Shown here: positions 18,601 to 36,009 of the stretch, piece by piece
Numbering within the stretch: the stretch's first letter is position 1
Layout of the letters: each line of letters begins with the position of its first letter
Assembly: GCA_903828455.1 (NCBI GenBank)
Contig: CAIKMJ010000080.1
Coordinates: forward strand, 1 to 64,000
Direction: 5' to 3'
From: an uncultured Acidobacteriia bacterium
Lineage (GTDB): Bacteria > Acidobacteriota > Terriglobia > Bryobacterales > Bryobacteraceae
Length of the DNA stretch: 64,000 bases
Notes under the pieces: generated by a model
Told to the model about the DNA's origin: nothing
Databases searched by the model: none
The model's input: the letters and a program-made list of their open reading frames with translations, nothing else
Position numbers and translations under genes: made by a program

Positions 18601-18851
18601 CCGGGTACTCAAACCTGGACATGGCAGTATTCAAGAACACGCCAGTCAAGAGGGTCTCGGAAGTGTTCAACATTCAGCTGCGGGCGGAGTTTTTCAATCT
18701 GCCGAATCATCCCAACTGGGGCCAGCCGAACCAGAACGTTTTCAACAACGGCGTTGGACCGAATGGAACGCTCAACCCGAACGTCGGTCGAATTACCTCG
18801 ATTGTGGGGACGTCCCGGCAGATCCAGCTGGGGATCAGAATCGGCTTCTGA
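15660..18851 (+). CDS. Oar-like TonB-dependent receptor with carboxypeptidase-regulatory domain
   Basis: This 1063-residue outer-membrane protein has a signal peptide (to about residue 30), a carboxypeptidase-regulatory/Cna-B-like domain (about 33-120), a plug region with DLPLNGRNFESLIALAPGV (about 145-165) and a long beta-barrel to the C-terminal GIRIGF. Proteins of this type are greatly expanded in Acidobacteria and are usually called Oar-like or TonB-dependent receptors; ligands are mostly unknown. AGAGGG seven bases before the ATG supports the start. It converges on the beta-glucuronidase-like gene and may or may not belong to the polysaccharide locus that follows. The second receptor gene, not this one, is coupled to enzymes. 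Confidence 0.9.
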   Translation: MKASFGLNLPRAAALVFATFLMGAGLLPAQTSTATISGTVTDGSGAAVPGAKVEAKNIQTGIVQATAADGQGRFRVGELLVGTYEVQAAQTGFETVLRKNLTLTVGSEVVVDISLPVGQSQQTVTVESQVSRVETSSVAVSTLVERTQMEDLPLNGRNFESLIALAPGVITIPNTGGPFYGKNDNYSIAGSRPLGQQILIDDTNFMGFWGHSTGSGAAGSSLGLEAIAEFQTLTNTYTAQFGGNGGVINASSKSGTNSFHGSAFEFLRNSAMDSRSPFDTVVLPGKTTAHVPEYRRNQYGGSIGGPIKKDKAFFFVDYEGVRAAQGNSTVVTNTPDVNAHQGYLPCNVAGAAFACNSTTNLAYVGVAPSIAPILALFPSAAASPSGSGNITEVLNNITHEDYVLARADYTLSTKDNIFVRYVRDTATYFSPQSIAPFVELDATNNNFATIEERHIFSATLVNLAHVSFTRPTETQTQESPNIAALVFAAGRPNGRVALTGGPTLGLNGLAPNSLKPNHFVEGEDVIWTRGAHTVRAGVSLERVDDNTTGVGTLGGLYTFPNLVGLLTATPNQVTIPLQGQTNATRGVRTWFLSPYVQDEWKYNRRLTFNLGLRYEWGSDPTEVNNLLYNVNVVNGAVAGTGYVNTPNLYLKNITSRNFAPRAGFAYDLFGDHKTSVRGGYGIFYQLLQTKDVVQALWGSPPFVSGTANNPSFPNPFVGTGPAAPLPGTGIGIYDGSASTPLTMQYNLNIQRDLSRGLILTLGYTGSRGMHLLLPRDYNTPQLINGAWGTPGPNGTTTPNIRLDPNFSGFTMRNTVGNSNYNGLIVSLNRRFANHWQTQISYTYSKSLDNGSAGQGAEAGPNAPNYPSNPYNAAADYGRSSFDRTQAARISVIYELPGRGMLLSGWRITGLYTRTTGTAVTPFTGFDRSGLGGGADARPNLVPGASPNPILGGPNQYFNPAAFSLQPLGTLGNLGRSTLSGPGYSNLDMAVFKNTPVKRVSEVFNIQLRAEFFNLPNHPNWGQPNQNVFNNGVGPNGTLNPNVGRITSIVGTSRQIQLGIRIGF

Positions 18852-18876
18852 GCAGCCGGCGTTTGGAGAATGTGGC

Positions 18877-18912
18877 GCGAGGATGCGCAACAGAGTTCGT
18901 TGCGCACCTCGC
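18877..18912. terminator. Strong hairpin between convergent genes, possible bidirectional terminator
   Basis: Arms GCGAGGATGCGCAAC and GTTGCGCACCTCGC pair across a 7-base loop with one bulged A. The hairpin lies 25 bases after the receptor stop and before the end of the convergent GH2 gene. There is no T-run on either side, so factor-independent termination is uncertain. Confidence 0.4.
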
Positions 18913-19092
18913 TTGCCGCTCGCGGGTCCGGCACGTTCCTGTAGGGCGCCGGGGGCCGTGCGGGAGTTGCACGAAGCCGTGCGGCACAACTGCACTGCAA
19001 ACGGTATGAAGGCGGCCGGTTCGACGTCAAGCGGGGTTCAGGTCAGCGGGGAACGCGAGTTCCGGCGAACTGTATTCCGCAGCGAACGCTTG

Positions 19093-20910
19093 TCACTTTT
19101 CAGCGGCCTTGCGGCGGTAGTAATCCTGCATCACGCCAAAGGCTTTCTTCTTTTCGCCGCGGATCGAAACGAGTCCTTTGCGGTTGAAATAGTCTTCGAT
19201 GTCGGGAAGGGTGCGGCGCGGGCTGCGGAAATCCATGAGGATCCAGGGTGAGGTGCCGCGAAGGAAGGGAATGCGGTCGAGCATGGCGAGCTGGTGTTGA
19301 AAGACCTTTTCCTGATACTCCTCGGTCCACCGGGTCTGATCGTCCCCATGCTTTCCGAAAAGCGCATCGGCTCCGAATTCACTCATGATCAGGGGCTTGT
19401 TGTAAGGCGAAGACCAGGTGGTGCGGTCTGCCTTCTCGGGTGTGCCGTCGTACCAGCCGATATATTCATTGCAGCCGAGTACATCGAGTACGGCTCCGAG
19501 CGGATCATCGAGCACGATTGAGTTCGAAGTGGCGGTGGCTTTCGCGTCGGCTTCATGAAGCATTGCGGCAGTGACGAGACGGGTGGGATCTGCCTGCTTC
19601 ACCTGACGAACCAGACGAGTGAGAAAGTCCGTGCGCGCGGCACCGATGGGGGTTTCATTCGCGACGGACCACAGAATGATTGCCGCGCGGTTCTTGTCCC
19701 GCCTGATGCTTTCGTCGATCTGATTGGCGGCGTTGGCGAAGGTGGCGGGATTATCCCAGGCGATGGTCCAGTAAACCGGCGTTTCGGACCACACCATGAG
19801 GCCGAGGCGGTCGGCCTCGCGCAGCATGAACTCGTTGTGAGGGTAGTGTGCCAGACGGACAAAATTGCAGCCTAATTCCTTTGCCCAGCCGAGCAGCGTT
19901 CTGGCGTCCTCGTCGCTGAAAGCCCGGCCGGAGCGAAAGGGCGCCTCCTCATGGATGGAAACGCCGCGCAGGAACACGGGCTTGCCGTTGAGAAGGATAT
20001 CGGTGCCGCGTGTTTCGATGGAGCGGAAGCCGATGCGGTCGGTGACTTTGTCGGTCCCGGTGGAAACGGTTACTTCGTAAAGTTTCGGCTCTTCGGGCGA
20101 CCAGAGTTTCAGACTGGACACCGGGATGTGCAGCGCCGCGTAGCCTGTTTCATCGGTAGTTGTTGTGACATCGATGCCGGCTTCCGGAATACGCACGCTC
20201 ACCTTTTGACCGGCTTTCCCGCCGTTGATCCGCACCCAGCCGGCAATCACATTGCCCGAACCCTTTTGAAGCTGGATCAGATAGTCTTCAATGAACGTGG
20301 CGGGAAGCTGAATGACGGAGACCTCCCGGGTGATGCCGCCATAATTCCACCAGTCGGCGTTCGTCGTCGGGACGGCTTCCTTGTGCCGGGTGTTATCTGC
20401 TTTCACGACAACGGAGTTTCCGGTTGGTTTCACCTTGCCGGTGATTTCGAAATCGAACGGAGTAAAGCCGCCGGTATGATCGCCCAGCTTTTCGCCGTTG
20501 AGCCACACGGACGCCTGATAGTTCACCGCGCCAAAATGCAGCCATGCACGATTGCCAGGCTTCAGGGAATAGTCGAACTTTTGCCGGTACCAGACGGTGC
20601 CTTCATAGAAGAAGAGCTTGTCCATCTGGCTGTTCCAGTCACCGGGAACATCGAGCTGCGGCGAGGTGTCGAAGTCGTACTCGAGGCGCGTGCTCTTGTC
20701 CTTCGGCTTGGCGTCGTTGAAATACGGCTCTTTGCTGGGCTGCATCCTGGCGTCGTAGAGCCCGTACTCGAACGGGTCCACGATGACGCGCCACTTTCCG
20801 TTGAGACTCTGGCTGGCCCGTGCCGGGGCGTTGCCGATCAAGACCGGGGTGTCTGCGCGAACTCCGGTCGTCGTGCCAAGGAGTATGAGTGTCAGCAGAA
20901 GATATTTCAT
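19093..20910 (-). CDS. GH2 family glycoside hydrolase, beta-glucuronidase-like
   Basis: I chose the ATG at 20910 because it overlaps the TGA of the esterase gene by four bases and opens a signal peptide (MKYLLLTLILLGTTTGVRA); this gives 605 residues. The domains are a sugar-binding jelly roll (about 35-200), an Ig-like domain (200-300) and a TIM barrel (300-600). The acid/base is E419 in WSVANET and the nucleophile E511 in PLIMSEFGAD. Near the C-terminus N576-R577-K578 (YFNRKGLV) matches the N-x-K motif that beta-glucuronidases use to hold the substrate carboxylate. It is the last gene of a minus-strand unit: receptor, esterase, GH2. A periplasmic exo-uronidase role is inferred. Confidence 0.85.
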   Translation of the reverse strand: MKYLLLTLILLGTTTGVRADTPVLIGNAPARASQSLNGKWRVIVDPFEYGLYDARMQPSKEPYFNDAKPKDKSTRLEYDFDTSPQLDVPGDWNSQMDKLFFYEGTVWYRQKFDYSLKPGNRAWLHFGAVNYQASVWLNGEKLGDHTGGFTPFDFEITGKVKPTGNSVVVKADNTRHKEAVPTTNADWWNYGGITREVSVIQLPATFIEDYLIQLQKGSGNVIAGWVRINGGKAGQKVSVRIPEAGIDVTTTTDETGYAALHIPVSSLKLWSPEEPKLYEVTVSTGTDKVTDRIGFRSIETRGTDILLNGKPVFLRGVSIHEEAPFRSGRAFSDEDARTLLGWAKELGCNFVRLAHYPHNEFMLREADRLGLMVWSETPVYWTIAWDNPATFANAANQIDESIRRDKNRAAIILWSVANETPIGAARTDFLTRLVRQVKQADPTRLVTAAMLHEADAKATATSNSIVLDDPLGAVLDVLGCNEYIGWYDGTPEKADRTTWSSPYNKPLIMSEFGADALFGKHGDDQTRWTEEYQEKVFQHQLAMLDRIPFLRGTSPWILMDFRSPRRTLPDIEDYFNRKGLVSIRGEKKKAFGVMQDYYRRKAAEK

Positions 20911-21725
20911 TTGGTTCCGGAAAATACGCTGAGCAGGAAGACTTCCATGGCTTTGAACGACGGCTCCATCCACTTTTCCTGCGACCAGAAAGTATGGGGC
21001 GCGCCTTCGGCGGTGAAGAGTTCGGCGCGCACTCCGGCCGCCTTCAGCTTTGCGATCATTTCGGGCGATTGCCGATAGGGCGCCGTTTCATCGGCTGTAC
21101 CGTGCAGAATCAGAAATGGCGCGGCGGAACGCGTTACATAGTTGGTGGGAGAAGCTTTGCCGCACAGCTCCGGCAGTTCGCCGCAGGTGCCGCCGAGGAA
21201 CTTTGCATTCGATACGTCTTTGTGCTGAAACAGATCGACGATCGGATTAAATGCCACCACGGCCTGTACGCGAGAGTCGCCTTCGCCGGTAACGCCCAGC
21301 AGCGCGGCGAGATGGCCGCCCGCTGAACTGCCCACGGCGGCGACGCGATTCGGGTCCACCCGATACTTCGCCGCATTGGCACGCAGCCACGCGACGGCCG
21401 CACGGGAATCGTCGACAGCCGCCGGATACTTCCACTCGGGAGCGAGCCGGTAATCGATGGCAAATCCCATGACCCCGAGCGCCGCCATTCGCGCTGCCTG
21501 GCGGCGAAGCTGCGTGCGGTCACCGCTGCTCCAGGCGCCGCCGTGAAGATAGACAGCCGCGGGGAAGGGTCCGGCGCCCTTCGGCAGATACAAGTCGGCT
21601 TTCAGTGCGACGCCCTGCGGTGACGCCCAGACGAGGCCGTCGACAAAATCGTACGCCGGACTTTGCTGCGCCGGCAGCAGCGCCGGCGCTGCGCAGCACA
21701 GGAGGACGGCGAAGGCGAGACGCAT
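20907..21725 (-). CDS. Exported alpha/beta-hydrolase (carbohydrate-esterase-like)
   Basis: This 272-residue protein has a signal peptide (about 1-20) and an alpha/beta-hydrolase fold of the BD-FAE/hormone-sensitive-lipase-like group. The oxyanion motif is HGGAW (residues 61-65), the nucleophile S134 lies in VGSSAGG, the acid is probably in HGTADETAP and the base His in EGAPHTFW. Its ATG overlaps the receptor's TGA by one base, and its stop overlaps the GH2 start by four bases. The three genes are therefore tightly coupled. In this setting a likely task is removal of acetyl or other ester groups from a polysaccharide; that is inference. A lipase or peptidase role cannot be excluded. Confidence 0.85.
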   Translation of the reverse strand: MRLAFAVLLCCAAPALLPAQQSPAYDFVDGLVWASPQGVALKADLYLPKGAGPFPAAVYLHGGAWSSGDRTQLRRQAARMAALGVMGFAIDYRLAPEWKYPAAVDDSRAAVAWLRANAAKYRVDPNRVAAVGSSAGGHLAALLGVTGEGDSRVQAVVAFNPIVDLFQHKDVSNAKFLGGTCGELPELCGKASPTNYVTRSAAPFLILHGTADETAPYRQSPEMIAKLKAAGVRAELFTAEGAPHTFWSQEKWMEPSFKAMEVFLLSVFSGTK

Positions 21726-24700
21726 CAGAAGCCCAGGCGTAAACCGAACTGGAGATTGCGGGCGGGGTACGCACCGGTCAGCGTGCCGAAGCCTGCGCTC
21801 GTCTGCACAACGCCGAGGGTGTTCAGGTTGACGTTATTGAAGGCGTTGAAGAAATCGGTCTGGAAGCGAAGATCGTAGCGTTCGCGAATCGGGAAGTGCT
21901 TGGCGAGCGACAGATCGTAATTGCGAAGACCGGGGGCTTCAATTATTCCCACGCCGGCGTTGCCGTATGCGCCGGCCGGCGCCGGACCGAAGGCCGCGGG
22001 GTTCACCCAGCCATTCGGCCCGCGGTCGGCCGCGAGGACCGGGCCACCGAGGTACTGTGCGCGGCGGGTTCCGATTGCGGTGTTGGCTGTGGGCGTGAGG
22101 TAGGGACCGGACTGCATCCTGACGACGGCGCTCAGTTGCCAGCCGCCGGCCGCTTCGCGGATCAACGCGTTCTGGTGCGAGAGTTTCGGCATCGCCCAGA
22201 CGATTGTGTCGACGAACTGATGACGCCGGTCGAACGTGGCGGGGCCGTAATTGAAGTGGCGATTGTTGGGATCGTCGGTGCCGCTGGTGGTGTCGTTGTA
22301 GGCGCTCGAATCGCTCAGTACCTTGGAGAATGTATAGCCGGTGTTGAAGGTCAGGGAGCCTTTGCGCCGGGCGAGGAAGACCTGCAACGCGTGATAGTTG
22401 GAGGTGGAATCGCTGCGGAACTGATTAATTGTCGAGTAGCCCTTGTAGGGGTTGAGGTAAATCGTGTTGACCTGCTGCGAGGTGGGCAGCGCGGCATTGG
22501 CAGCCAGCGCGGCGAAGTCCGGCTTGTTGAGGTTTACCTCGCGGATCAGGTGGCGGCCGAGGTTGCCGACGTACGAGGATTCGAGGAAGAGTCCCCACGG
22601 GAGCGTCCGCTGGATGTTGAAACTGTACTGCTGGTTGTAGGAGAACTTCAGGTTGGGATCGATGGACGTAATGGTCCCGAGAACCGTGGAGGTGGAAGGA
22701 GTGCCGCCGCTGGGATTGCTGAGATTGCCGTTCTGGAAGATGCCGCTGAGTGTGACCGGCGGCACATTCAGCTGGCTGAAGATCAGATTGCCCTGCGGGC
22801 GGTCGAAATAGATGCCGTAGCCGCCGCGAACCACCGTCTTATCGTTGACCGAATAGGCAAAGCCCACGCGCGGGGCGAAGGTGTTTTCCGAGTTATAGAA
22901 GCCGCGAGGCGCGCCGACCGGAACAGCTGAGAAGGCGGCGCCGGTCGAGCCCGGGACCCGGCCCTGCTGATCGGCGGGAACGCCGCTGCCGGCGAGGATC
23001 AGCCCGTCGTACGGATTGCCCGATCCCGGAACGATGGTGCCGGTCGTGGTGATTCTCACCGCTGTGGCCGGATTGTAGAGGGACGGCAGGAAATTTGCCG
23101 CATTGTTGGCCTGAAGGTGCCACGGCTGCATGGATTGGTAGCGGACGCCGAGTTCGAGGCTGAGCTTGCGGTTGACGCGCCAGCTGTCCTGAACGAAAGC
23201 TTCCGGCTCGGTGTAGCGGAAGAATCCGAGGGGATCGCTGGCGGACTCCTGGTAGGTGGCAAAGTTGCCCATCATCGCATCGGCGAGCGCGTTACCGCTG
23301 GTGTGGGTGTTTCCCGTGGTGGCGAAGGTGAGGTTTCCGGTGTAATCGGTGCGGCCATTTTGATCGTTGCGGCCGCGGATCAGGACGAAGCCGGCCTTGA
23401 AGGTATGGTCGCCCCTGATCAACGAGACGGTGTCGTTGAACTGGATGTCGGTGCCGGGCGAATGCAGGGAAAAGCCCGGGCCCTTGAAATTCGATATGTT
23501 ACTGATCGAAACGCTGGGGATGCCGCTTTCATAAGGTCCGCCGTTGGGAAAGAGCTGCGGGTACTGGAAGCCATAGTTGCTACGCTGCCAGGAAGTGCCG
23601 TAAGGCGGAATGTTCTGGGATGACCAGCCCACGCTCGCACGCACTTCATTGACCAGATGGGGATTGACGACCCAGGTTTCGGCGACGAGGAAGCTTTCGC
23701 CCGGGCGGAGACGGTTGGATTCAATTACGGGCAGGTTGGAACTGGAGAAGGTTCCAAAGGGATCGATCAGATCATTGGCGTCCTGAATCCAGCGACCGTA
23801 AATCATGTGGTTATCGTTGATCTTGTAGTCCAGCCGGATCAGTGCTTCGCGGAAATTCAGCGGGCTGGCCGGGGCCGTCACCGCGTTGTTCGTGACGGCC
23901 TGATCAGTAAAGCCGGCCAGCGTTTGCTGCATGTAGCGATACACATTGGCGATTGCCTGGCCATCCGGCGTGAGGAGGGACTTGAAGATCTGGTTGCCGG
24001 GGAACGGGATGGTGGTTCCCGGCTGGTAGATGGCGGTCTTTGAAGAGCTGAAATCCCCGTTTAGCTGGGCCGTGCTCGGCAGCGTGACGCGCTTGGCGTC
24101 CTGATTCTGGCGCAGTCGCTTCCATTCCATTCCGGCGAAGAAGAAAAACTTGTTTTTGCGGATGGGGCCGCCGGCATCGCCACCGAAATCGTTGAACCGC
24201 AGTTCGCTTTTGGAAGGAGCGAAGAAGTTGCGCGCATCGACGGCGTCATTCCTCAGGTATTCGAACGCAGCGCCGTGGAAATCGTTGGTGCCGTTTTTGG
24301 TCACGATGTTAAACGCGGCCCCGGACTTGCGGCCGTATTCGGCGGAATAATTGGAAGTCTGAATCTTCACTTCCTGTACGAAGTCGACGCCTACATTATT
24401 AATTAAGCTTCCGTTGCTGCCCGCGACCTGGTTATAGGCTCCGTCTACCGTGAGGTTGTTGGAGTCTACACGATTGCCGTTGACTGACTGCGTGTTGGAA
24501 GCGAGGCTGGTTGTGGTCCCGAAGGAATCGATCGTGGTGACGACAGTACCGGGAACTAGCGTCAGCAGCTGGATGTAGTTCCGGCCGTTGAGCGCCAGGT
24601 TCGCGACGTCCTTGCTGTCAATCACCCGAGCCAGTTCACCGGAGACGGTGTTGATCTGCTCGGTTTGCCCCGCCACGACTTCCACGGTTTCGGTGACGGC

Positions 24701-25051
24701 GCCGATCTGGAGGGCGAAGTCCACGGTGAGGCGGGAGTCGGCGAAGAGTTCGAGGTCGTTGCGAACTTCCCGCTTGAAGCCCTTTTGGTCTGCCTCGACC
24801 CGGTAGTGGCCAATCGGGAGGTTGGTGGCGACGTAGAAGCCGGCGGCGTCGGCGGCCACGGTGCGGGCCTCCTGCGTGTCGGTGTCAAGGATGGTTATGG
24901 CCGTCCCCGCGACCGGGGCACCGCTCGGATCGGTGACCGAACCGGAGATACGACCGGCGCTGGTCTGGCCGAGGAGCAATCCGGCTCCTGCGCATAAAAG
25001 AAGAATAGACGGCGTCGCGATCCAGGGCGACCGGCTGCGAAAACGTAGCAT
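21725..25051 (-). CDS. Oar-like TonB-dependent receptor of the uronate locus
   Basis: A GGAG five bases before the ATG at 25051 fixes the start, giving 1108 residues; a longer frame reaching 25120 is less likely. The order is signal peptide (ending LLLGQ), carboxypeptidase-regulatory domain (about 35-110), plug with NLALNGRNYIQLLTLVPG, and a large beta-barrel ending FGLRLGF. It is the first gene of a coupled unit with an esterase and a GH2 beta-glucuronidase-like enzyme. It is divergent from a membrane regulator-like gene and a lyase operon. This placement suggests that it imports oligosaccharides derived from a uronic-acid polymer. No SusD-like lipoprotein is present in the window. Confidence 0.9.
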   Translation of the reverse strand: MLRFRSRSPWIATPSILLLCAGAGLLLGQTSAGRISGSVTDPSGAPVAGTAITILDTDTQEARTVAADAAGFYVATNLPIGHYRVEADQKGFKREVRNDLELFADSRLTVDFALQIGAVTETVEVVAGQTEQINTVSGELARVIDSKDVANLALNGRNYIQLLTLVPGTVVTTIDSFGTTTSLASNTQSVNGNRVDSNNLTVDGAYNQVAGSNGSLINNVGVDFVQEVKIQTSNYSAEYGRKSGAAFNIVTKNGTNDFHGAAFEYLRNDAVDARNFFAPSKSELRFNDFGGDAGGPIRKNKFFFFAGMEWKRLRQNQDAKRVTLPSTAQLNGDFSSSKTAIYQPGTTIPFPGNQIFKSLLTPDGQAIANVYRYMQQTLAGFTDQAVTNNAVTAPASPLNFREALIRLDYKINDNHMIYGRWIQDANDLIDPFGTFSSSNLPVIESNRLRPGESFLVAETWVVNPHLVNEVRASVGWSSQNIPPYGTSWQRSNYGFQYPQLFPNGGPYESGIPSVSISNISNFKGPGFSLHSPGTDIQFNDTVSLIRGDHTFKAGFVLIRGRNDQNGRTDYTGNLTFATTGNTHTSGNALADAMMGNFATYQESASDPLGFFRYTEPEAFVQDSWRVNRKLSLELGVRYQSMQPWHLQANNAANFLPSLYNPATAVRITTTGTIVPGSGNPYDGLILAGSGVPADQQGRVPGSTGAAFSAVPVGAPRGFYNSENTFAPRVGFAYSVNDKTVVRGGYGIYFDRPQGNLIFSQLNVPPVTLSGIFQNGNLSNPSGGTPSTSTVLGTITSIDPNLKFSYNQQYSFNIQRTLPWGLFLESSYVGNLGRHLIREVNLNKPDFAALAANAALPTSQQVNTIYLNPYKGYSTINQFRSDSTSNYHALQVFLARRKGSLTFNTGYTFSKVLSDSSAYNDTTSGTDDPNNRHFNYGPATFDRRHQFVDTIVWAMPKLSHQNALIREAAGGWQLSAVVRMQSGPYLTPTANTAIGTRRAQYLGGPVLAADRGPNGWVNPAAFGPAPAGAYGNAGVGIIEAPGLRNYDLSLAKHFPIRERYDLRFQTDFFNAFNNVNLNTLGVVQTSAGFGTLTGAYPARNLQFGLRLGF

Positions 25052-25121
25052 CGTTACTCCAAACAATTGAAAGTCCAGCTTACATTTATCGCCCAGAGCC
25101 TTGCGACAGGCAAGCCTCAAG

Positions 25122-25142
25122 ACGTTACGAGCTACGTTACGA
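25122..25142. promoter_or_regulatory. Direct repeat ACGTTACGA, period 12, in divergent control region
   Basis: ACGTTACGA occurs at 25122-25130 and exactly again at 25134-25142, with ATCGTTA just after. The spacing puts both copies near the same helix face. They sit in the 118-base gap between the receptor operon and the regulator-like gene and could be an operator. TAGAAT at 25158-25163 ends only six bases before the ATG at 25170, so a short or leaderless transcript is possible. Confidence 0.4.
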
Positions 25143-25169
25143 AATCGTTAATTGCTGTAGAATCAATGC

Positions 25170-26513
25170 ATGCAGTTGGACCAGTGCAACGAAGCGCCGG
25201 TGCTGGAGGCTGAAAAGCTCGAGGCGCTGGCGGCCGTTCTGAGCAGCGAAACCTTCGCCCGCGCCGAACAGCTGCGTTCATTTTTGCGCGTTGTCTGCCA
25301 ACTGGAACTCGAGGGGCGAAGCGCCGAGATCACCGAATACGTCATCGGAGTACAAGCCCTGGGGCGTCCCGCCGATTATTCACCGACGGAGGATTCATCG
25401 GTTCGAACCAGGGCGTATGAACTTCGTCAGCGACTGAAAAAATTCTACGAACAGGAACGGCCGGAGCTTCCGCTACAGATCGAGTTGCCGAAGGGCTCGT
25501 ATGTACCGAGGTTTCAGCGAATCACCGGACGCACAGAAACTGCATTTGTCGAAGCTGAATCGGTGCCGGTCTCGACTTCAGCAATTCCTGTCTCGACTTC
25601 AGTAAATCAGAGCCAGCTTTTGCCGACGCGCGTGCCGGGGTGGGCGGCCGGGTTTCTCCTCGGCGTGCTGCTGATGTCCGGCATCTGGTGGTGGAAAGCG
25701 TCGCTGGTGACCGATGTATCGCCGGGTCCGGTGCTGCGGGAGGCTTGGGCGCCACTGCTGGGGAGGGATCCGGATGTGCTGATAGCGGTTGCCGCCCCGC
25801 TCCACCTGCTGGTGTCGCCGTTCATGAGCACCACCCCGGGAAGTCTGCCCAAATACCCGGCGCCCCCCGGGCTGGAGGAACTGTTCAGCCGATTCCGGCC
25901 TCTTCCGTCCGGCGCAAAGCTGGAAATGCAACCGGTCCAAAAGTCGCTGGAGATGGGGGACGCACAGGCCGTCGCTCAGGTTGCCGAGATGCTGAATGGT
26001 CTTGGTGCAAAATCGCGCATTCTGCCGGAATCGAATTCCCCGCTGCCTTCGATGCGGAAGCGCAGCGCGGTTTTGGTCGGCTCGCCGTGGTACAGCCGCA
26101 GCGCGACGACGCTTCTGGAGCAGACGCCGTGGACGATGCGTCTCGACCCGGACATCCACGAGATCGGGATTTTCGGTCAGGGGCCGCGCGCGGGGCAGAA
26201 ATATCTTCCGGCCCGGGGTGAACGGCGTGAGTATCAGGAGGTATTTGGGCTGCTGACTGTTCTGAATAACGATGCCGCGCCGGATGATCCGCGCACGCTG
26301 GTATTGTTCTCCGGTCTGACGTCGGTGGGGACGCATGGAGCTGCCGCGTTTTTCAGCTCGGCGAAGTCCATGCAGGAGCTTAAAAAGCGTTTTGAAAGGG
26401 AAGGGATAAACGGCTTCCCGCACTCGTATCAGGTGATCATCCGCTGCCGCGCCAGCCAGGATGCGCAACTCCTTTCCTATTCGTACGAAGCCCACGGGCT
26501 GATCTCGCGCTGA
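25170..26513 (+). CDS. Membrane-anchored regulator-like protein of acidobacterial type
   Basis: This 447-residue protein has an N-terminal conserved region (about 25-115) with FLRVVCQLELEGRSAEITEY, VIGVQALGRPADYSPTEDS and SVRTRAYELRQRLKKFY, ending in LPKGSYVPRF. I know this block from acidobacterial proteins that join it to a membrane helix and varied C-terminal domains; a regulatory role is often assumed but I cannot cite proof. A short VPVSTSAIPVSTS repeat precedes one membrane helix (about 156-175). The C-terminal domain (190-447) resembles no family I can name. It lies divergent to the receptor operon and upstream of the lyase operon, so it is a good candidate for the locus regulator (inference). 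Confidence 0.75.
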   Translation: MQLDQCNEAPVLEAEKLEALAAVLSSETFARAEQLRSFLRVVCQLELEGRSAEITEYVIGVQALGRPADYSPTEDSSVRTRAYELRQRLKKFYEQERPELPLQIELPKGSYVPRFQRITGRTETAFVEAESVPVSTSAIPVSTSVNQSQLLPTRVPGWAAGFLLGVLLMSGIWWWKASLVTDVSPGPVLREAWAPLLGRDPDVLIAVAAPLHLLVSPFMSTTPGSLPKYPAPPGLEELFSRFRPLPSGAKLEMQPVQKSLEMGDAQAVAQVAEMLNGLGAKSRILPESNSPLPSMRKRSAVLVGSPWYSRSATTLLEQTPWTMRLDPDIHEIGIFGQGPRAGQKYLPARGERREYQEVFGLLTVLNNDAAPDDPRTLVLFSGLTSVGTHGAAAFFSSAKSMQELKKRFEREGINGFPHSYQVIIRCRASQDAQLLSYSYEAHGLISR

Positions 26514-26579
26514 TTCGGCCCGCGCAAAATCTGTCCGGCCAGGTTCTGTCCCGGCACTCGGCATCGCCGGTCTTCACAG

Positions 26580-26588
26580 TGCTATATT
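26580..26588 (+). promoter_or_regulatory. Candidate extended -10 promoter of the lyase operon
   Basis: TGCTATATT has the TG extension and a five-of-six match to TATAAT. It lies about 95 bases upstream of the first gene of the four-gene plus-strand operon. No convincing -35 is seen. The 171-base gap between 26513 and 26685 shows nothing else that I can support. Confidence 0.3.
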
Positions 26589-26684
26589 CTTTGCTCAGAG
26601 TGACGCGCCGGCCCGCGGGGCGCCGCGCAAAATGAGGCCGTCGCCGCCGGTGGGGCGCAAAGACGAAAGGCCGGTGAGGCAAAG

Positions 26685-27533
26685 ATGAAATCGCAATCCT
26701 TCGGCTTAACGCTTCTGCTGCTGATGACGCCGGCCGTGTTTGGCCAGAAAATGCTGGTGGCGGACGGGCATACCGATACCTACACGCTCATCAACAAGGC
26801 TTTCGGCGGATCGGCGGAAGAGCCGCCGGACTGTGGGCATCCGGCATTCGGTCCGCACATCACACAGGACGCGGATGCGGAACTCGGCCGGCCGGTCTTC
26901 CTTTTTCACATGCACCTGACGCCGGATAACGACCGCTGCAGCAACTTCGGCAGGCAAAGGAATGAGATCAAGACGTACGGTCCTTCGCCGGATGCTCTGA
27001 AGGGGTTCTACGGCGACACGGTTACGTTTCGCTGGAAGTTTCGTCTGGAAGCGGGATTCCGCCCGTCCGGCGTATTCACCCACCTTCATCAGGTGAAGGC
27101 CGCGGACGGGGACGATGCCTTTGCGCTTATCACGATCAGCGCTCACGCCGGGGGCGCTCAGGCGGGGAAACCGAACACGCTGCGGGTGATCGGCATCGAT
27201 TCCAAAAACACGACGACGATACTGAAGGAGCAGCCGCTCGATCCCTTTGTCGGCCACTGGATTGAGGCTTACGAACGAATCCAGTACGGCGGACCGACGC
27301 ATGGGGCCGGCGAGTCCGGAACATACCGGCTGAGTCTGACGGATGTGGCGACCGGCAAGGTGCTGCTGGAATACGTGAACCCCAGCCTGGATCTGTGGCG
27401 AAGCGGCACAACCTTCGTGCGGCCCAAGTGGGGAATTTACCGGAGCCTCGAGGACAAAGAACAGCTGCGGGATGAAATCGTGCGTTTCAACGATTTCTGC
27501 CTGGCCAAAGGAAAGGAAGACTGCCGGCCATGA
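26685..27533 (+). CDS. Exported lyase-like jelly-roll protein
   Basis: This 282-residue protein has a signal peptide (MKSQSFGLTLLLLMTPAVFG) and a single domain. It contains TFRWKFRLEAGF, SGVFTHLHQVKAADGDDAF, GHWIEAYERIQYG and SGTTFVRPKWGIYRSL. This pattern (aromatic 'W-E-x-x-E', 'R-P-K-W-G-I-Y') is that of the beta-jelly-roll polysaccharide lyases and related heparin-lyase-I-like proteins. I cannot assign a PL family. GAGG five bases before the ATG supports the start. It is the first gene of a coupled four-gene operon; its TGA overlaps the next ATG by four bases. It probably cleaves or binds a uronic-acid-containing polymer. Confidence 0.65.
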   Translation: MKSQSFGLTLLLLMTPAVFGQKMLVADGHTDTYTLINKAFGGSAEEPPDCGHPAFGPHITQDADAELGRPVFLFHMHLTPDNDRCSNFGRQRNEIKTYGPSPDALKGFYGDTVTFRWKFRLEAGFRPSGVFTHLHQVKAADGDDAFALITISAHAGGAQAGKPNTLRVIGIDSKNTTTILKEQPLDPFVGHWIEAYERIQYGGPTHGAGESGTYRLSLTDVATGKVLLEYVNPSLDLWRSGTTFVRPKWGIYRSLEDKEQLRDEIVRFNDFCLAKGKEDCRP

Positions 27534-28687
27534 ACCGCAGAGTCTTTCTGGCCGCGGCAGCGGCGAACCTTTCGCGACGCGCAATCGCCGGTGAGCGGTT
27601 CGACGCGGCGGCGTTCGACAGAGCCCGCGTTCTGCGCCAGGCGCGCTTGCTGCTGAAGCAGAATCCGGTCACGGTTACGGCAGCGCAGAGTCCGCGCAGC
27701 GCCGGCGGGCTGCATGATTTTTTCTCCGAGGGCGATTACTGGTGGCCCGATCCGAAAAATCCCTCCGGACCGTATGTGCAGCGGGACGGGCTGACAAACC
27801 TGGACAACTTTGTCGCTCATCGTCAGTCCCTGATGAAGCTCAGCGTCGCGGTGCCGGCTCTGACCGCGGCGTGGAAGCTGACGCGCGAGAAGGCGTTTGC
27901 GGAGCATGCGGCTCGGCACGTTCGCGCGTGGTTTGTGGACGAAGCCACGCGAATGAATCCGAATCTGCAGTTTGCGCAGGCGATCCACGGTAAGACGAGC
28001 GGGCGAGGGACCGGCGTGATCGACACCATTCATCTGGTGGAGGTCGCAAGGGCAATTCCTTGGCTCGCCGAATCGCGGGCCATGAGCAGCGGAGAGTTCG
28101 ACGCGGCGCGCGCCTGGTTTGCGGACTACCTCAACTGGATGAGCACCAGCCCGAACGGCATTGAAGAGCGCGACACGAAGAACAACCACACCACGTGCTG
28201 GGTCATGCAGGCGGCGGCGTTTGCGAGCCTCGCGGGAAACCGCCCGATGCTCCTCTGGTGCGCCAACCGGTTTCGCAGTGTGATCGTTCCCGGACAGATT
28301 GCGCCGGACGGCAGGTTGCCGCTCGAACTGGCGCGAACCAAGCCCTACGGTTACTGCCTTTTCAATCTGGATGCGCTGGCGACGATCTGCCGGATCGTGT
28401 CAGCGGACGGCGACGATCTCTGGAACTTCGTTACGCCGGACGGGCGGGGAATGAAGAAAGCGGTGGAGTACATGTTCCCCTATATCGCAGACAAGCGACG
28501 CTGGCCGCTGCCGCCGGATGTGATGTACGACGAATACTGGCCGATGCGGCAGGCGGCTCTGTTATTCGGCGGGCTGGCATGGGATCGGGCGGAATATCTG
28601 GCGGTGTGGAAGAAACTTCCGGCCGAATCCGGTGTTGACGAAGTGATCCGCAATTATTTTATTCGCCAGCCCGTGCTTTGGGTGTGA
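27530..28687 (+). CDS. Alginate-lyase-family protein (PF05426 type), exported
   Basis: This 385-residue protein starts MNRRVFLAAAAAN, a twin-arginine-like leader. An (alpha/alpha) toroid-type domain follows, with GDYWWPDPKNPSGPYVQRDG, the central KNNHTTCW (H220) and the terminal NYFIRQPVLWV. These are hallmarks of the alginate_lyase family, which includes PL5 and PL38 enzymes that cut uronate polymers by beta-elimination and leave unsaturated uronyl ends. The PL38 branch acts on glucuronan or alginate; which substrate applies here cannot be told. It is second in the operon and overlaps its neighbour by four bases. It fits well upstream of the GH88 enzyme that would process its products. Confidence 0.85.
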   Translation: MNRRVFLAAAAANLSRRAIAGERFDAAAFDRARVLRQARLLLKQNPVTVTAAQSPRSAGGLHDFFSEGDYWWPDPKNPSGPYVQRDGLTNLDNFVAHRQSLMKLSVAVPALTAAWKLTREKAFAEHAARHVRAWFVDEATRMNPNLQFAQAIHGKTSGRGTGVIDTIHLVEVARAIPWLAESRAMSSGEFDAARAWFADYLNWMSTSPNGIEERDTKNNHTTCWVMQAAAFASLAGNRPMLLWCANRFRSVIVPGQIAPDGRLPLELARTKPYGYCLFNLDALATICRIVSADGDDLWNFVTPDGRGMKKAVEYMFPYIADKRRWPLPPDVMYDEYWPMRQAALLFGGLAWDRAEYLAVWKKLPAESGVDEVIRNYFIRQPVLWV

Positions 28688-28715
28688 TGGCCGGTTACGA
28701 AGGACGGCGAGAAGG

Positions 28716-31184
28716 ATGACGAGACGAACTCTTCTGCAGGGTGTTACAGGCGCCACGATTGCGGGCCGGCTTGCCTCCTTCGCGCGCGGCGCAACGGACG
28801 GGGTGAAGACCTACTCGCAGCGTCTGCTTAAAGGCTGGGAGTGCTATCGCGGAAATCTGGGCGGACCGTGGGAAGCATTTCGGGGCAGCGCGGCGGCGGC
28901 CAACGTGGAATGGACCGCGATCCCGTCCATGCCGCATTGCTTCAACGATCGTGATGCGGCCGATCCGGACCAGGGCTACTATCAGGGTCCGGGCTGGTAT
29001 CGGACGACGCTGAAGCCGGAGAATCCTTACGCGAACGGCCGCACGCTGCTTCACTTCGAAGGGGCCGGACAGAAGACACGGGTGTTTGTCTACCTGAATC
29101 CGGTTGCCGAACACGTCGGCGGATACGACGAGTGGGGAGTCGACATTACCGACGCAGTTGCCGCTGAAGTCAGGGCGAATAAGGGCAACGTCCGGCTGGC
29201 AGTGTGGTCGGACAATTCGCGGGATCAGGAGATGATCCCGTCGAGCCAGAGCGATTTCAATTTGTATGGCGGGCTCTACCGCTATGTGAACCTGGTTTAC
29301 GTTCCCGCCATTTCGCTGGAGCGGGTCCACATCGAAAGCAAAGCGGAGGCAGGAGGCAAAGCGTCCGCCGCGGTGCGCGTGCGATTGTACAATCCGTCTG
29401 CGCTGACCGATGAGGTCGAGATCGGAATTGAAATTCTGGATCCCGCGGGGAAGGCGATCCACACTTCCTCGCGACGGATGGCGCCGTGGCAGGGTGAGCA
29501 GCAGCTCGTTGGTTTTGCTGTCGCCGATGCGCAGCTGTGGTCTCCGGACAGGCCCGCTTTGTATCGCTGCCAGGTGACGCTGAAAAGCGTGCATGGTGAG
29601 ACGGCGGCGAGCGAGCGATTCGGCCTCCGGTACTTCGAATGGGTGGAGCACGGCCCGTTCAAACTGAATGGAGAACGACTGCTGCTGCGCGGCACGCATC
29701 GTCATGAGGACCACGCCGGAGTCGCGGCGGCGATGACCGAAGAGCTGATCCGCAGGGAGTTGCTCATGATCCGCGGGATGGGGGCCAACTTTATGCGCCT
29801 CGCGCACATTCAGCAGTCTCCTTTGGTGCTGGATCTCTGCGACGAACTGGGCATTCTCATCTGGGAAGAGATTCCGTGGTGCCGGGGCGGCGTGGGCGGC
29901 GACAAATACAAGGAACAGGCCCGCCGCATGCTGCGCAACATGATCGACCAGCACTATAACCATCCGTCGGTCATCCTTTGGGGACTGGGGAATGAGAACG
30001 ACTGGCCGGGCGATTTCCCGAAGTTCGATGAAGAAGGGATCAAGTCCTTCATGCGGGAGCTGAACGGAATTGCGCACGCCGCCGATCCGTCGCGCAAGAC
30101 GGTGATCCGGCGTTGCCCGTTCGCGGCGGATATACCGGATGTTTATTCGCCATCCATCTGGGCCGGCTGGTACAGCGGAACGTTCCCGGAGTACCGGAAG
30201 TCGGTTGAAGCAGAAATGAAGAAGGTGAAACACTTCTTCCACGCCGAATGGGGCGGCGACAGCCACGCCCGCCGCCATTCGGAAAATCCCGACGCAGGGC
30301 TGGCGAAGATTGCCACCGGCCAGGGAACCGAGGAGCGCAGCCTGGACTATCTGCTGACCGGCGGACAGGCTCGGGCGTCCAAAGACGGAGACTGGTCGGA
30401 GACCTATATCTGCAATCTGTTCGACTGGCACCTGAAAGAGCAGGAGGCGATCCCGAATTTGACCGGCGCGGCGCAGTGGATTTTCAAGGATTTTTCGACG
30501 CCGCTGCGGCCGGAAAATCCCGTCCCGCGCATGAACCAGAAAGGGGTGGTGGAGCGCGATCTCACGCCGAAAGAGAGCTACTACGTCTTTCAGTCTTATT
30601 GGGCGCAAAAGCCGATGGTCCGAATCTACGGACATACGTGGCCGATTCGCTGGGGCGAGGCCGGTGAGGCGAAGCTCGTGAAGGTCTATTCGAATTGCGC
30701 AACCGCGGAGCTTTTTCTGAACGGCAAGACGTGCGGAGTCAGGAATCGCAACAGTCAGGACTTTCCTGCCGCGGGGCTGCGGTGGTCGGTGCAGTTTCGC
30801 GCCGGAGAAAACCGGCTTCGGGTGGTGGCCGCGCGGAACGGCGTTACGGTCACAGATGAGATCTCGTTCCTTTATCAGACCGAGAAGTGGGGAGCGCCGG
30901 CAAGGCTTGAGCTGACCGAGGTGAGTCGCAGCGGCGGCGCGTCGACGGTGGAAGCGCGGCTCTTCGATGAGGCGGGTATCGCTTGTCTCGACGCGCGCCA
31001 GCGTGTGCGTTTTGCGCTTTCGGGAGACGGAACACTACTCGACAATCTGGGGACTTCGACGGGTTCGCGCGAGGTTGAACTTTACAACGGCCGGGCGATG
31101 ATTTCATTGCGCACCAACGGCGGAGTTTCCGAAGTCAGTGCCGCGGTGAAGGGGTTGCGATCGGCGTTTCTGAGGATCGCATAG
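28716..31184 (+). CDS. GH2 family glycoside hydrolase, beta-galactosidase/uronidase type
   Basis: This 822-residue protein has a Tat-like leader (MTRRTLLQGVTGATIAG), a GH2 sugar-binding domain (about 35-200), an Ig-like domain (200-310), a TIM barrel (310-600) and C-terminal Ig-like domains (about 640-822). The acid/base is E427 in LGNEND and the nucleophile E511 in FFHAEWGGD. N607-Q608-K609 (MNQKGVV) is again an N-x-K motif; in GH2 it is used by beta-glucuronidases but is also seen in some beta-galactosidase-like enzymes, so specificity is open. It starts 28 bases after the alginate-lyase gene and its stop is directly followed by the GH88 ATG. A periplasmic role in trimming oligosaccharides is inferred. 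Confidence 0.85.
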   Translation: MTRRTLLQGVTGATIAGRLASFARGATDGVKTYSQRLLKGWECYRGNLGGPWEAFRGSAAAANVEWTAIPSMPHCFNDRDAADPDQGYYQGPGWYRTTLKPENPYANGRTLLHFEGAGQKTRVFVYLNPVAEHVGGYDEWGVDITDAVAAEVRANKGNVRLAVWSDNSRDQEMIPSSQSDFNLYGGLYRYVNLVYVPAISLERVHIESKAEAGGKASAAVRVRLYNPSALTDEVEIGIEILDPAGKAIHTSSRRMAPWQGEQQLVGFAVADAQLWSPDRPALYRCQVTLKSVHGETAASERFGLRYFEWVEHGPFKLNGERLLLRGTHRHEDHAGVAAAMTEELIRRELLMIRGMGANFMRLAHIQQSPLVLDLCDELGILIWEEIPWCRGGVGGDKYKEQARRMLRNMIDQHYNHPSVILWGLGNENDWPGDFPKFDEEGIKSFMRELNGIAHAADPSRKTVIRRCPFAADIPDVYSPSIWAGWYSGTFPEYRKSVEAEMKKVKHFFHAEWGGDSHARRHSENPDAGLAKIATGQGTEERSLDYLLTGGQARASKDGDWSETYICNLFDWHLKEQEAIPNLTGAAQWIFKDFSTPLRPENPVPRMNQKGVVERDLTPKESYYVFQSYWAQKPMVRIYGHTWPIRWGEAGEAKLVKVYSNCATAELFLNGKTCGVRNRNSQDFPAAGLRWSVQFRAGENRLRVVAARNGVTVTDEISFLYQTEKWGAPARLELTEVSRSGGASTVEARLFDEAGIACLDARQRVRFALSGDGTLLDNLGTSTGSREVELYNGRAMISLRTNGGVSEVSAAVKGLRSAFLRIA

Positions 31185-32903
31185 ATGCGAGGTCTCGTCG
31201 GTCTTTTTGCGATGGTGACGCTGGCTGGGCAGCTTGCGGCCGCACCGCACGTGAAGGTCGTGAAGTTCTCTGTCTCGAATCCCTCGGATCAGCCGCGGGT
31301 GGACGGGAATGTCGCGCTGAAGATTGGCGACATACGGAAAATTGCGCCGGATTTTTCGCCAGCCGATGCGATCGTAACCGCCACCGAAGCCGCCACCCTG
31401 GCGGCAGATGCGGCGGTGTTGCAGGCGAGCGAAATTCCGTTTCGTGTGACTCCGACAGAGCTGATCGTGCAGCTTGGTCTTGCGCCGCATCAGACCCGGA
31501 TCGTGACTGTTGCGTGGGGCGAGCGAACAACGATCCTTCGACTCAGACAGAATGGCGCGGACAACCAGACCGGAATCCTCCTGCCCGGCGCAGCCTCACC
31601 GACACGGCTTCACCCCGCTGCCGTATTCCGCGACGGGGTGGCGGCCGTCGATCCGCCGGCGCGGGTGCAGTTGCTGTCGCGCTCCGGTGCGGCACAGTCG
31701 GCGCCTCCGGACACGCTGACACCCGTGCGCCGCAGCCGTGCTCAGGCGATCGCGCTCATGCAGGAAGCCGCTTCCCGCACCGCACGCAAATTTGAACCAT
31801 TGATCGGCGCGACCGATCCGAAGGCCGCCGACAAATATGCGGGCGCGGGCTTTTTCACCGAAGGCGACGCTGCGACGGGTGAATGGAAGCCGCAGAAAGG
31901 TTACTTCTGGACGGCCGGCTTCTGGGCGGGGGAACTGTGGGCGCTGTATGAACGAAGCCACGACCCGGAGTTCCGGCGATGGGCCGAGTTGTGGACGGCA
32001 CGGCTGCTGGGCAACGAGTCGAAACAGAACCACGATACCGGGATGCTGAATTTTAATTCGTCAGCGGCCGCATATCGAATTACTCACGACGCGAAATACC
32101 GCGAGGGTGGATTGCGCGCGGCCGAGCGACTGCGTGAGCACTTCAACACGCGGACCGGCCTCGTTGCAGCCTGGGCGCCGAACGGAGACGACTCAATCAT
32201 CGATACGATGATGAATCTGCAGATCTGGTGGTGGGCTGCCGACGAGACCGGTGACCCGAAGTGGCGCGAACCGGGCCGCAGCCACGCGCTGCGCGCGGCG
32301 GAGTGGCTGATGCGAAGCGACGGCTCGGCGTATCACTCGGTACACTACAATCCCGGCGACAATCGCCAGAAATTCACATCCAGTGGAAAGATACTGACGC
32401 TGGCAAACGAGACGGCGCCAGGTCAGCTGGTATTCAACCACACCCACCAGGGCTACGCGGCCGATTCGGCATGGGCGAGAGGTCAGGGCTGGGCGGTCTA
32501 CGGATTCGCGGAAGCATATCGCGCGACACGCGAAGCGAGGTTGCTCGAAACGGCGGAGCACGCAGCCCAATTTGCCATCGATCACCTGCCGGACGATGGC
32601 GTCCCCTGGTACGACTATTCCGATGAAGGAGTCTTCTTCCGCAATCGTGACAGTTCGGCCGGCGCGATTCTGGCGAGTGGCCTGCTGCGCCTCGCGGAAC
32701 TGACACCGGATTCCGCGCGGGCGACCGTGTATCGCCGCGAAGCGGAGCGCATTACGGAATCCCTGATCGAGCGATACCTGTCGCCTGCCGGCACACTTCG
32801 CCACGGTTCCTCGACCCGGCCGAGCGACGTGTCTCTCATATACGGGGACTACTATTTGCTGGAGTCGCTCTTCCGGCTGGAAGATAATTCCGCTCGTCAC
32901 TGA
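31185..32903 (+). CDS. GH88-family unsaturated glucuronyl hydrolase with N-terminal extension
   Basis: This 572-residue protein has a signal peptide (to about residue 20), an extra N-terminal beta-rich domain (20-175) and a GH88 domain (about 185-565). Family segments are [25 protein letters not shown] (D284), [14 protein letters not shown] (D340), [20 protein letters not shown] and [12 protein letters not shown]284 and D340 correspond to the two catalytic Asp residues of bacterial unsaturated glucuronyl hydrolases. Such enzymes hydrate the 4,5-unsaturated uronyl residue that lyases leave at the non-reducing end. It is the last gene of the operon and begins immediately after the previous stop. 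The ~155-residue N-terminal domain is unusual for GH88. Confidence 0.9.
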
Positions 32904-33085
32904 GATCAGGCAGGGTCGTCGGGACAGTCGTGTGGTCCGAAAGTTCGTTCTTCCTGAAATGAAGCACGAACCTGCGGAGCGCAGAGATGATCTGAGCGAC
33001 AGTTATTGGCCGCTTTGACAACGATAACGGTCCAGTGATCCGAAGCCGGAAATAAGGGAGCTACGAGCGAAAATCCGGGGTGAGG

Positions 33086-33151
<66 letters not shown>

Positions 33152-33161
<10 letters not shown>

Positions 33162-34924: not shown

Positions 34925-36009
34925 GCCGAATCGCACAAGACCTGCCAGTACCTTTTCGCCACCGCTTCTATTGCGTGATGCCCGGCGATCCACTTTCGCG
35001 CCTGTTCGCCGATGTCGCGCGCCACCTGCGGAAACGCCGCCGCCAAAACCATATGGTCGAATAATTCGCCGCGCTCGGCAATGCCCGGACGCACGCGCAG
35101 CACGGCGGTTTCCGGGTAAGCAGCATTCTCCGCGAGGTCCGACAGGATCACCGGTTTGCCCATTGCCATCAGTCGTACCGCGATTCCGGACGTTTCGCCG
35201 GCAGCGGGATAACGCAGATTCAGGCAGCAGTCGACGGCGGCCGCGGCAATCATTAAATCTTCTTCACGCAGGTGTCCGAGGCGGCGGATGGCCCGGTGCG
35301 GCGGTTCCTGATCGAGCGCGCGCGCCAGATCCTTCGACACCGGGTCGCCGGCAATCAGCAGCGCCGTGTCGGGTCGCGCGGCGTGCAGTTCGCGGAAGGC
35401 GGAGATGCATGTCATGACGCGCTTGGGTTCGCGCAGGTAGCCGAACATGCCGAACAGCCGCGCCCCTGGTGCGACGCCGATGCGGTTCCGGAAGGCAGCG
35501 ATGGTGGCGGCATCCGGCACGGTCACCGGTTCGACGAAATGCGGAATCACTTCGACACGCTTCGCTCCGTGCGCCCGCGCCATCTCCGCCGCGCCGGGGT
35601 TGTGGACGATGACGGTGCGCGAGGTTTCCGCAATCCGCCGCAGCATGGGGAATTCGAAATAGCGCGGGTCGACGCCGGCGCGCCCGCTGCCGCGCCACAA
35701 CTCCTCGCCGAGATCGCGGCGCCAGGTGCCGTAGTTGTGGAGCCACTCGGCCATGTATTCGTCATGCGTCAGGGTGCCGAGGAAGAAGTGCTGCAGCACG
35801 GTATCGTGCAGTACGGCGACGCCGGGGCGGCTCAGCGCAGCCGCATATATCGTCTGATGAAAGCGGTTGTTGCCGATGTGATAAAGATTCACGTCGCCGT
35901 CGCCGGGACGGACGTCTCCCGGTTGCCGCAAAGCCCGCAGCAGCGTTTCGGCGTAATCGGCGACGCCGGTTGCCGAACCGGGCGGCGGCGCATGCCAGCC
36001 GACGGTCAT
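34921..36009 (-). CDS. Glycosyltransferase family 4-type protein
   Basis: The ATG at 36009 overlaps the yggS stop by four bases and gives 362 residues starting MTVGWHAPPPGSATGVADYA, typical for GT-B glycosyltransferases (acceptor domain with GVADY). The donor half has FGMFGYLREPKRV, ALLIAGDPVSKD and the nucleotide-sugar region RYPAAGETSGIAVRLMAMG. GT4 enzymes transfer sugars from nucleotide donors to lipids, glycans or proteins; the acceptor is unknown. It is the middle gene of a coupled unit: yggS, this gene, CocE-like hydrolase. No membrane helix is visible, so it is probably cytoplasmic. Confidence 0.88.
   Translation of the reverse strand: MTVGWHAPPPGSATGVADYAETLLRALRQPGDVRPGDGDVNLYHIGNNRFHQTIYAAALSRPGVAVLHDTVLQHFFLGTLTHDEYMAEWLHNYGTWRRDLGEELWRGSGRAGVDPRYFEFPMLRRIAETSRTVIVHNPGAAEMARAHGAKRVEVIPHFVEPVTVPDAATIAAFRNRIGVAPGARLFGMFGYLREPKRVMTCISAFRELHAARPDTALLIAGDPVSKDLARALDQEPPHRAIRRLGHLREEDLMIAAAAVDCCLNLRYPAAGETSGIAVRLMAMGKPVILSDLAENAAYPETAVLRVRPGIAERGELFDHMVLAAAFPQVARDIGEQARKWIAGHHAIEAVAKRYWQVLCDSA

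Follow-up and report, generated by a model that had tools for sequence, protein, structure and literature searches.

An acidobacterial locus for probable uronate-polymer utilization built on an Oar-type TonB-dependent receptor in place of SusC/SusD

Introduction

Glycan import in acidobacteria is little described. We analyzed a contig stretch of 64,000 nucleotides, hereafter the window, from an uncultured Acidobacteriia bacterium (Bryobacteraceae; assembly GCA_903828455.1, contig CAIKMJ010000080.1), in which an earlier reading of the sequence (the original prediction) had proposed a polyuronate utilization locus lacking SusD. Our results indicate that eight genes of this window probably form a uronate-polymer utilization locus that resembles a polysaccharide utilization locus (PUL) but relies on an Oar-type TonB-dependent receptor (TBDR) in place of SusC/SusD. 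The minus strand encodes the receptor, an esterase, and a glycoside hydrolase of family GH2 (GH2a), and the plus strand encodes a candidate regulator, an uncharacterized lyase-like protein (P5, gene at 26685), a PL38 polysaccharide lyase (27530), a second GH2 enzyme (GH2b), and a GH88 hydrolase (31185).

Among Bacteroidetes SusC/SusD PULs, the nearest that we found (locus L118) has in common with this locus a TonB-dependent importer, uronate enzymes, and the clustering of GH88, GH2b, P5, and GH2a, but the acidobacterial locus has no SusD, an OMP_b-brl_4 receptor of the Oar type, another regulator, an added esterase, and a PL38 gene within the cluster. The same four enzyme kinds are therefore attached to SusC/SusD in L118 and to an Oar-type receptor here, a comparison that makes it testable whether such a receptor alone imports glycans without SusD. 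The glucuronan lyase system of Trichoderma parareesei also has PL38 among its glucuronan-acting enzymes but differs in being fungal and secreted, with no known importer or linked regulator. β-1,4-Glucuronan itself is known from soil bacteria and from the walls of Mucoromycota. TpPL38A of T. parareesei is named in a paper that lists four PL38 enzymes as alginate or glucuronan lyases and one as acting on hyaluronan and chondroitin sulfate (PMC13027841). In Akkermansia, a PL38 lyase is likewise followed by an unsaturated uronyl hydrolase, but the latter is a GH105 instead of a GH88 and Amuc_0778 and Amuc_0863 are far apart; this PL38 enzyme was demonstrated to be active on all tested glycosaminoglycans (GAGs) except heparan, while growth on GAGs was absent (PMC11790493).

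Carbohydrate loci with TBDRs and no SusD, termed CUT loci, were described in 2007 for Xanthomonas and aquatic Proteobacteria, so that the lack of SusD is in itself already known (PMC1790865). The present locus has in common with them a TBDR, carbohydrate enzymes, and a regulator but belongs to another phylum and has no inner-membrane transporter among the scanned genes; as CUT loci combine all four components, it is a partial CUT locus at best. A limited full-text literature search (PUL/TBDR and glucuronan lyase), judged partly by title and abstract, did not return such an acidobacterial locus. One paper lists glucuronan among the putative lyase targets in Terracidiphilus metagenome-assembled genomes (MAGs), and its main text does not mention SusD, TonB, or polysaccharide utilization (PMC9599518). 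New here are the family of the 26685 product, the exchange of receptor and regulator, and the link of DUF4861 to uronate-oligosaccharide processing.

Results

The eight genes were found by an open reading frame (ORF) check as originally predicted in coordinates, order, and overlaps (Table 1). In the minus-strand unit, the receptor and esterase genes overlap by 1 base and the esterase and GH2a genes by 4 bases (ATG starts at 25051 and 20910). In the plus-strand unit, P5 and PL38 overlap by 4 bases, a gap of 28 bases separates PL38 from GH2b, and GH88 follows GH2b with zero spacing. The two units are indeed divergent, but the regulator gene around which they had been placed reads in the direction of the plus unit, so that only the minus unit is divergent to it; the regulator lies between the two, 118 bases from the receptor start.

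The assignment of 27530 to the alginate lyase family was confirmed by Pfam (Alginate_lyase, PF05426; E = 7.4e-88). In the Protein Data Bank (PDB), 27530 matched 3nfv with 211 bits and entries of the 8bdq group with 131 bits; we take 8bdq/9fi1, whose residue numbering matches, to be BoPL38. H243 and Y298 are named as the catalytic residues of BoPL38 (PMC13169297), and H220 and Y275 of 27530 align with them. Together, the Pfam match, the full-length PDB similarity, and the conserved His/Tyr pair assign 27530 as PL38-like. Its closest PL38 relatives, among the matches listed, come from Acidobacteriia and Bryobacterales MAGs (66 to 72% identity), which marks the host as an acidobacterium. We collected the loci of the best 80 of at least 563 relatives; these are often on short contigs (24/80 exceed 20.5 kb), so that counts from them come from a biased sample, and genes in these and other relatives (numbered with the prefix L) were named by BLAST to chosen representatives unless Pfam is stated. 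GH2b relatives with at least 38% identity occurred in 13 of the best 80 PL38 loci (L077, with a 25% GH2 match, was excluded), and GH88 relatives occurred in 7. Cultured acidobacteria that have PL38 and GH2b in the same neighborhood include Granulicella mallensis (L094) and Edaphobacter modestus (L086).

Downstream of a lyase, unsaturated uronyl ends would call for an enzyme such as the 31185 product, which scored 36.7 bits against Pfam GH88 (cut-off, 26.6). Its best PDB matches were unsaturated-uronyl-hydrolase chains (1vd5, 159 bits), and of the 8 distinct sequences matched at E ≤ 0.01, five bear the name unsaturated uronyl hydrolase or GH88, while the other three are uncharacterized gbs1889 entries. 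The catalytic Asp pair of GH88 is D88/D149, and 31185 combines similarity to the uronyl hydrolases with the two corresponding Asp residues, D284 and D340 (Table 1). Relatives (E ≤ 1e-40) were present in 8/297 Acidobacteriota genomes. In the Ignavibacteria/Bacteroidetes loci L089, L095, and L102, GH88 and GH2 form one ORF of ∼1,180 amino acids (aa), and Pfam confirmed both domains for L106, which holds the same gene as L102.

The 31185 protein also carries the trace of a further domain. Its relatives in L143 to L146 are 858 to 969 aa long, with DUF4861 ahead of the GH88 part (PF16153, E = 7e-67 in L143; the L144 match carries one in-frame TGA), and they lie near MFS, SDR, KduI-like, KdgF-like, and KdgK-like genes. 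DUF4861 is complete in L143:8893-11469, whereas 31185 has kept only about its first third (∼125 residues, encoded by 31185-31559) and has lost ∼260 residues. Fusions of DUF4861 to a PF07470 hydrolase (L017) and to GH2b (L119) were found as well. Its three fusion partners belong to one pathway, which suggests that this domain acts in uronate-oligosaccharide processing. A paper naming DUF4861 was not found in our literature search.

Both GH2 enzymes are predicted hexuronidases. GH2a matched Pfam GH2 and, in the PDB, 6d1n (743 bits) and 7vqm (AqGalA, 697 bits); it contains N418-E419, E511, and N576-R-K578. This last motif, N-x-K, is the mark of GH2 hexuronidases (PMC12243196). The similarity of GH2a to both 6d1n and AqGalA makes glucuronidase and galacturonidase activity both possible. 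GH2b, a GH2 protein with DUF4982, matched the β-glucuronidase entry 6d7j across nearly its full length (1,020 bits) and contains N607-Q-K609, from which we predict β-glucuronidase specificity. Hence, the N-x-K motif noted for the minus-strand GH2 is present there but is not restricted to it. GH2b relatives (E ≤ 1e-100) were found in 10/297 Acidobacteriota genomes, this one included, and PL38 was near GH2b in 4 of the 9 other acidobacterial neighborhoods (L014, L017, L018, and L020). Another kind of PF07470 hydrolase, which we take for GH105, was present in seven of these nine (Pfam confirmed on 4 of the 7). GH2a relatives (E ≤ 1e-120) were found in 22/297 genomes.

The receptor has the Pfam domains CarboxypepD_reg and OMP_b-brl_4, and no SusD was found by Pfam among the ten ORFs scanned from 15660 to 34993. 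The idea of a single receptor with a carboxypeptidase-regulatory domain and no SusD therefore holds, and the adjacent SusC and SusD of a SusC/SusD PUL are not seen here. The pair of receptor and GH2a recurs in L147, where the receptor adjoining the GH2a relative is 44% identical over 1,126 aa and where the 19 kb fetched contain no PL38.

Table 1. Genes and intergenic region of the locus, with positions in the window (Sec- or Tat-like starts and signal peptides were read by eye)
Feature	Coordinates	Strand	Predicted identity and marks
GH2a	19093..20910	-	GH2 β-hexuronidase, similar to 6d1n and AqGalA; N-x-K at N576-K578; signal peptide
Esterase	20907..21725	-	α/β-hydrolase, BD-FAE / Abhydrolase_3; candidate deacetylase; signal peptide
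Oar-type TonB-dependent receptor	21725..25051	-	CarboxypepD_reg + OMP_b-brl_4
Intergenic region, receptor/regulator	25052..25169		direct repeat ACGTTACGA, candidate operator
Candidate one-piece membrane regulator	25170..26513	+	nothing in Pfam; low-confidence model
P5, uncharacterized lyase-like protein	26685..27533	+	distant to PF14099 Polysacc_lyase; signal peptide
PL38 polysaccharide lyase	27530..28687	+	Alginate_lyase PF05426; catalytic matches H220 and Y275
GH2b	28716..31184	+	GH2 β-glucuronidase with DUF4982, 6d7j-like; N-x-K at N607-K609; Tat-like start
GH88 unsaturated glucuronyl hydrolase	31185..32903	+	D284 (HDTG), D340 (IIDTM); DUF4861 remnant, ∼residues 1-125

P5 had no NCBIfam match. 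We aligned nine members of its family, and all nine matched PF14099 (Polysacc_lyase) at E ≤ 0.01, the best at 8.7e-7, with the L119 member reaching 26.0 bits. The nine have in common H52, H58, H77, E94, Q136, K138, and an RPKWG motif. The prediction of a lyase-like protein thus found support at the level of the family but not from the 26685 sequence alone, which stays under the curated cut-off. We read P5 as representing a distant, undescribed family of putative lyases, related to PF14099 and not classed as a member of it. A search of the PDB with the family profile returned no lyase and one chance match (E = 0.29), and a single-sequence AlphaFold2 model was of low quality (mean pLDDT, 42.9).

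The family has a scattered distribution. P5 was found in 1/396 Acidobacteriota genomes, namely, its own, and in 8/395 genomes from the same phylum as the Ignavibacteria locus L102 (35 to 52% identity; this includes the match in a PL38 genome). There was none in 246 genomes of the phylum of the Phycisphaerales locus, in a search that had no positive control, and a pattern scan of genome contigs was empty despite the existence of relatives, which marks the limit of that method. At the thresholds applied, P5, GH2b, GH2a, and GH88 were all absent from two genomes that belong to the same taxonomic family as the window (G187 and G289).

Five of eight neighborhoods of P5 relatives contained another uronate lyase or a GH88/GH2 pair. 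The relative stands beside a chondroitinase-B/PL6-type gene in L105 and L117 and with PL6-type, PL38-like, and heparinase II/III-like genes in L115. L118 has SusC, SusD, GH88, GH2b, P5, and GH2a (52% identical) in a row, and L119 has GH88, GH2-DUF4861, two PL38 genes, a P5 fusion, SDR, and KduI. In L114, the P5 relative accompanies an α-fucosidase and a weak GH105-like BLAST match, while L116 and L120 had zero matches to the query set. The P5 relative of L119 (6801-10166) is a protein of 1,121 aa that contains an fn3 domain and ends in a type IX secretion tail; by eye, TRAP-like genes lie nearby.

The regulator had no Pfam match. Full-length relatives are encoded in L037 (41%) and L035 (39%), in each case divergent to a receptor that heads a receptor-sulfatase-PL38 operon, and more remote relatives were found close to GH2b in L017, L020, and L021. 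A low-confidence model from three sequences (mean pLDDT, 49.8; N-terminal part best modeled) shows five N-terminal helices and a hairpin, then a hydrophobic stretch at about residues 158 to 175 (by eye), and an α/β C-terminal part; Foldseek gave no match to it at E ≤ 0.001. From its secondary structure and from known architectures, the N terminus is a candidate winged helix-turn-helix-like domain, and we propose a one-piece membrane regulator whose sensor part is presumably periplasmic. The 9-base direct repeat in the intergenic region starts at 25122 and 25134, with a period of 12 bases; the two copies are the only occurrences of this 9-mer in the window, and we regard them as a candidate operator. 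Short direct repeats of the TTGCARCA type are also found upstream of the relatives in L035 and L037.

As for the fate of the products, the genome encodes UxaC, 17 bases after an SDR match, in a cluster (C46:31242-36278; L150:3743-8779) that holds a GDSL esterase, a LarA-family protein (Lar_N), SDR, and UxaC, with a small kinase encoded on the opposite strand. By eye, the kinase looks gluconokinase-like. Genes of the SDR (65%), kinase (43%), and LarA (33% over 324 aa) kinds also accompany a GH2a relative in genome G084 (L149), where the kinase matches shikimate-kinase/AAA_33 models. Among the homologues of LarA are D-gluconate 2-epimerases, and one group of these occurs in uronic-acid contexts (PMC7583248). 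This cluster, its recurrence, and the epimerase literature make possible a LarA-based route from glucuronate via fructuronate, mannonate, and gluconate to 6-phosphogluconate. The genome also encodes an Eda-type aldolase. Products of GH88 normally need a route for unsaturated uronate, yet this genome had no KduI match (see below).

Discussion

Gene families, gene order, catalytic residues, conserved neighborhoods, and fusions are seen directly, and from them we infer a substrate, an order of steps, a localization, an uptake, and a regulation as follows. The receptor would bind the polymer or large oligomers and carry them through the outer membrane, and the esterase would strip acyl groups. P5 and PL38 would cut the chain by β-elimination, leaving 4,5-unsaturated uronyl ends that GH88 could take off, while one or both GH2 β-glucuronidases would take off saturated uronyl units. 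Glucuronate would then reach the cytoplasm via a transporter encoded elsewhere in the genome and be handed to UxaC, and the regulator might act on the divergent promoters after sensing a product across the inner membrane. Gene context supports this shared pathway. The succession of lyase, GH88, and GH2 is supported by the families, the catalytic residues, and the context across phyla, but to call it complete, as the original prediction did, goes too far: the scanned genes of the locus included no transporter or Kdu gene, and KduI had no match in the genome.

A number of observations weigh against this reading. P5 alone scored 17.3 bits against PF14099 (E = 0.0046), below the curated cut-off of 29.9 bits, and it is absent from 11 of the 12 genomes with PL38 loci (present in 1/12). 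No inner-membrane transporter, KduI, KduD, or KdgK was found among the scanned genes of the locus, and KduI (PF04962) had no match in the genome, while it was matched in 6/14 control genomes. Relatives of the esterase were not found in the neighborhoods of GH2b, PL38, or the regulator. Fourteen of the best 80 PL38 loci contain a sulfatase, ten of them in the group with 63 to 70% identity. Finally, the whole gene set is not conserved in any neighborhood examined: none of the best 80 PL38 loci had a GH2a match above 31% identity, the 19 kb fetched for L118 lacked PL38, and of the three GH2a neighborhoods fetched only L147 kept the pairing with the receptor. The sulfatase-bearing PL38 loci are L026, L028 to L031, L035, L037, L040 to L042, L081, L083, L096, and L102, mostly from Acidobacteria, and their sulfatases may point to sulfated uronate polymers in those relatives.

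Of the polymers originally listed as candidates (glucuronan, alginate, ulvan, or GAG-like), alginate is disfavored by the GH88/GH2 pair; otherwise, the substrate may be any polymer within the known range of PL38. We tentatively name (acetylated) β-1,4-glucuronan as the likeliest substrate, as the lyases, GH88, the pair of GH2 hexuronidases, and the esterase encoded here would suffice for an acylated glucuronate homopolymer; neither PL17 nor a hexosaminidase, a rhamnosidase, or a sulfatase turned up in the locus. GAG-like or other glucuronate polymers rank next. A GAG-like or sulfated target of the hyaluronan/chondroitin type, with sulfatases and hexosaminidases encoded elsewhere in the genome, would agree with the activity of the Akkermansia and Roseihalotalea PL38 enzymes on GAGs (PMC11790493, PMC13027841), with the sulfatases in the PL38 loci, and with the unsaturated chondroitin disaccharide hydrolase among the solved GH88 relatives. 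We nevertheless consider it unlikely, as neither the window nor the rest of the contig has a sulfatase ORF (phmmer with three sulfatases, E ≤ 1e-10), Pfam found no hexosaminidase among the locus genes, and two GH2 hexuronidases seem to exceed what GAGs would require.

The two units could also be unrelated neighbors, with receptor, esterase, and GH2a devoted to one target, be it a glycoside (such as a β-galacturonide) or a polymer, and the PL38 unit to another. The L147 pair, which has no PL38 within its 19 kb, the similarity of GH2a to the β-galacturonate enzyme AqGalA, and the lack of a GH2a match above 31% identity in the best 80 PL38 loci favor this explanation. Yet GH2a stands beside P5, GH2b, and GH88 within the one SusC/SusD locus of L118, and the close relatives of the regulator are divergent to receptors of PL38 operons, so that we judge two separate systems to be quite improbable. 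We infer a common substrate for the two units, although 0 of the best 80 PL38 loci show a GH2a match above 31%. Utilization of alginate is very doubtful: although BoPL38 and Aly38A are PL38 alginate lyases (PMC13027841) and P5 relatives adjoin chondroitinase-B/PL6-type genes in L105, L115, and L117, neither PL6 nor PL17, the pair typical of alginate loci (PMC13377030), is among the scanned genes, and it is hard to see what β-glucuronidase-type GH2s and GH88 would do on mannuronate/guluronate chains.

Returning to a single uronate-polymer locus, we propose with some reserve a broader interpretation, in which 26685 would represent a new family of uronate-polymer lyases, DUF4861 would be an unrecognized component of the unsaturated-uronate step, and both would belong to a cassette of the glucuronan type that Bacteroidota and Acidobacteriota have retained while its importer (SusC/SusD versus an Oar-type receptor) and its regulator were exchanged. 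Both the 26685 family and DUF4861 offer small targets suited to expression, and their activity would broaden how uronate-polymer enzymes are classified. A recent en bloc transfer from Bacteroidetes was rejected, as GH2a, GH2b, and GH88 are 62, 77, and 60% identical to acidobacterial relatives versus 52, 40, and 32% to those of L118, and the matching GC and GC3 contents of P5 and its neighbors also disfavor it. A second Oar-type TonB-dependent receptor is encoded upstream of the locus on the plus strand (15660-18851), adjoining an uncharacterized protein (14611-15447).

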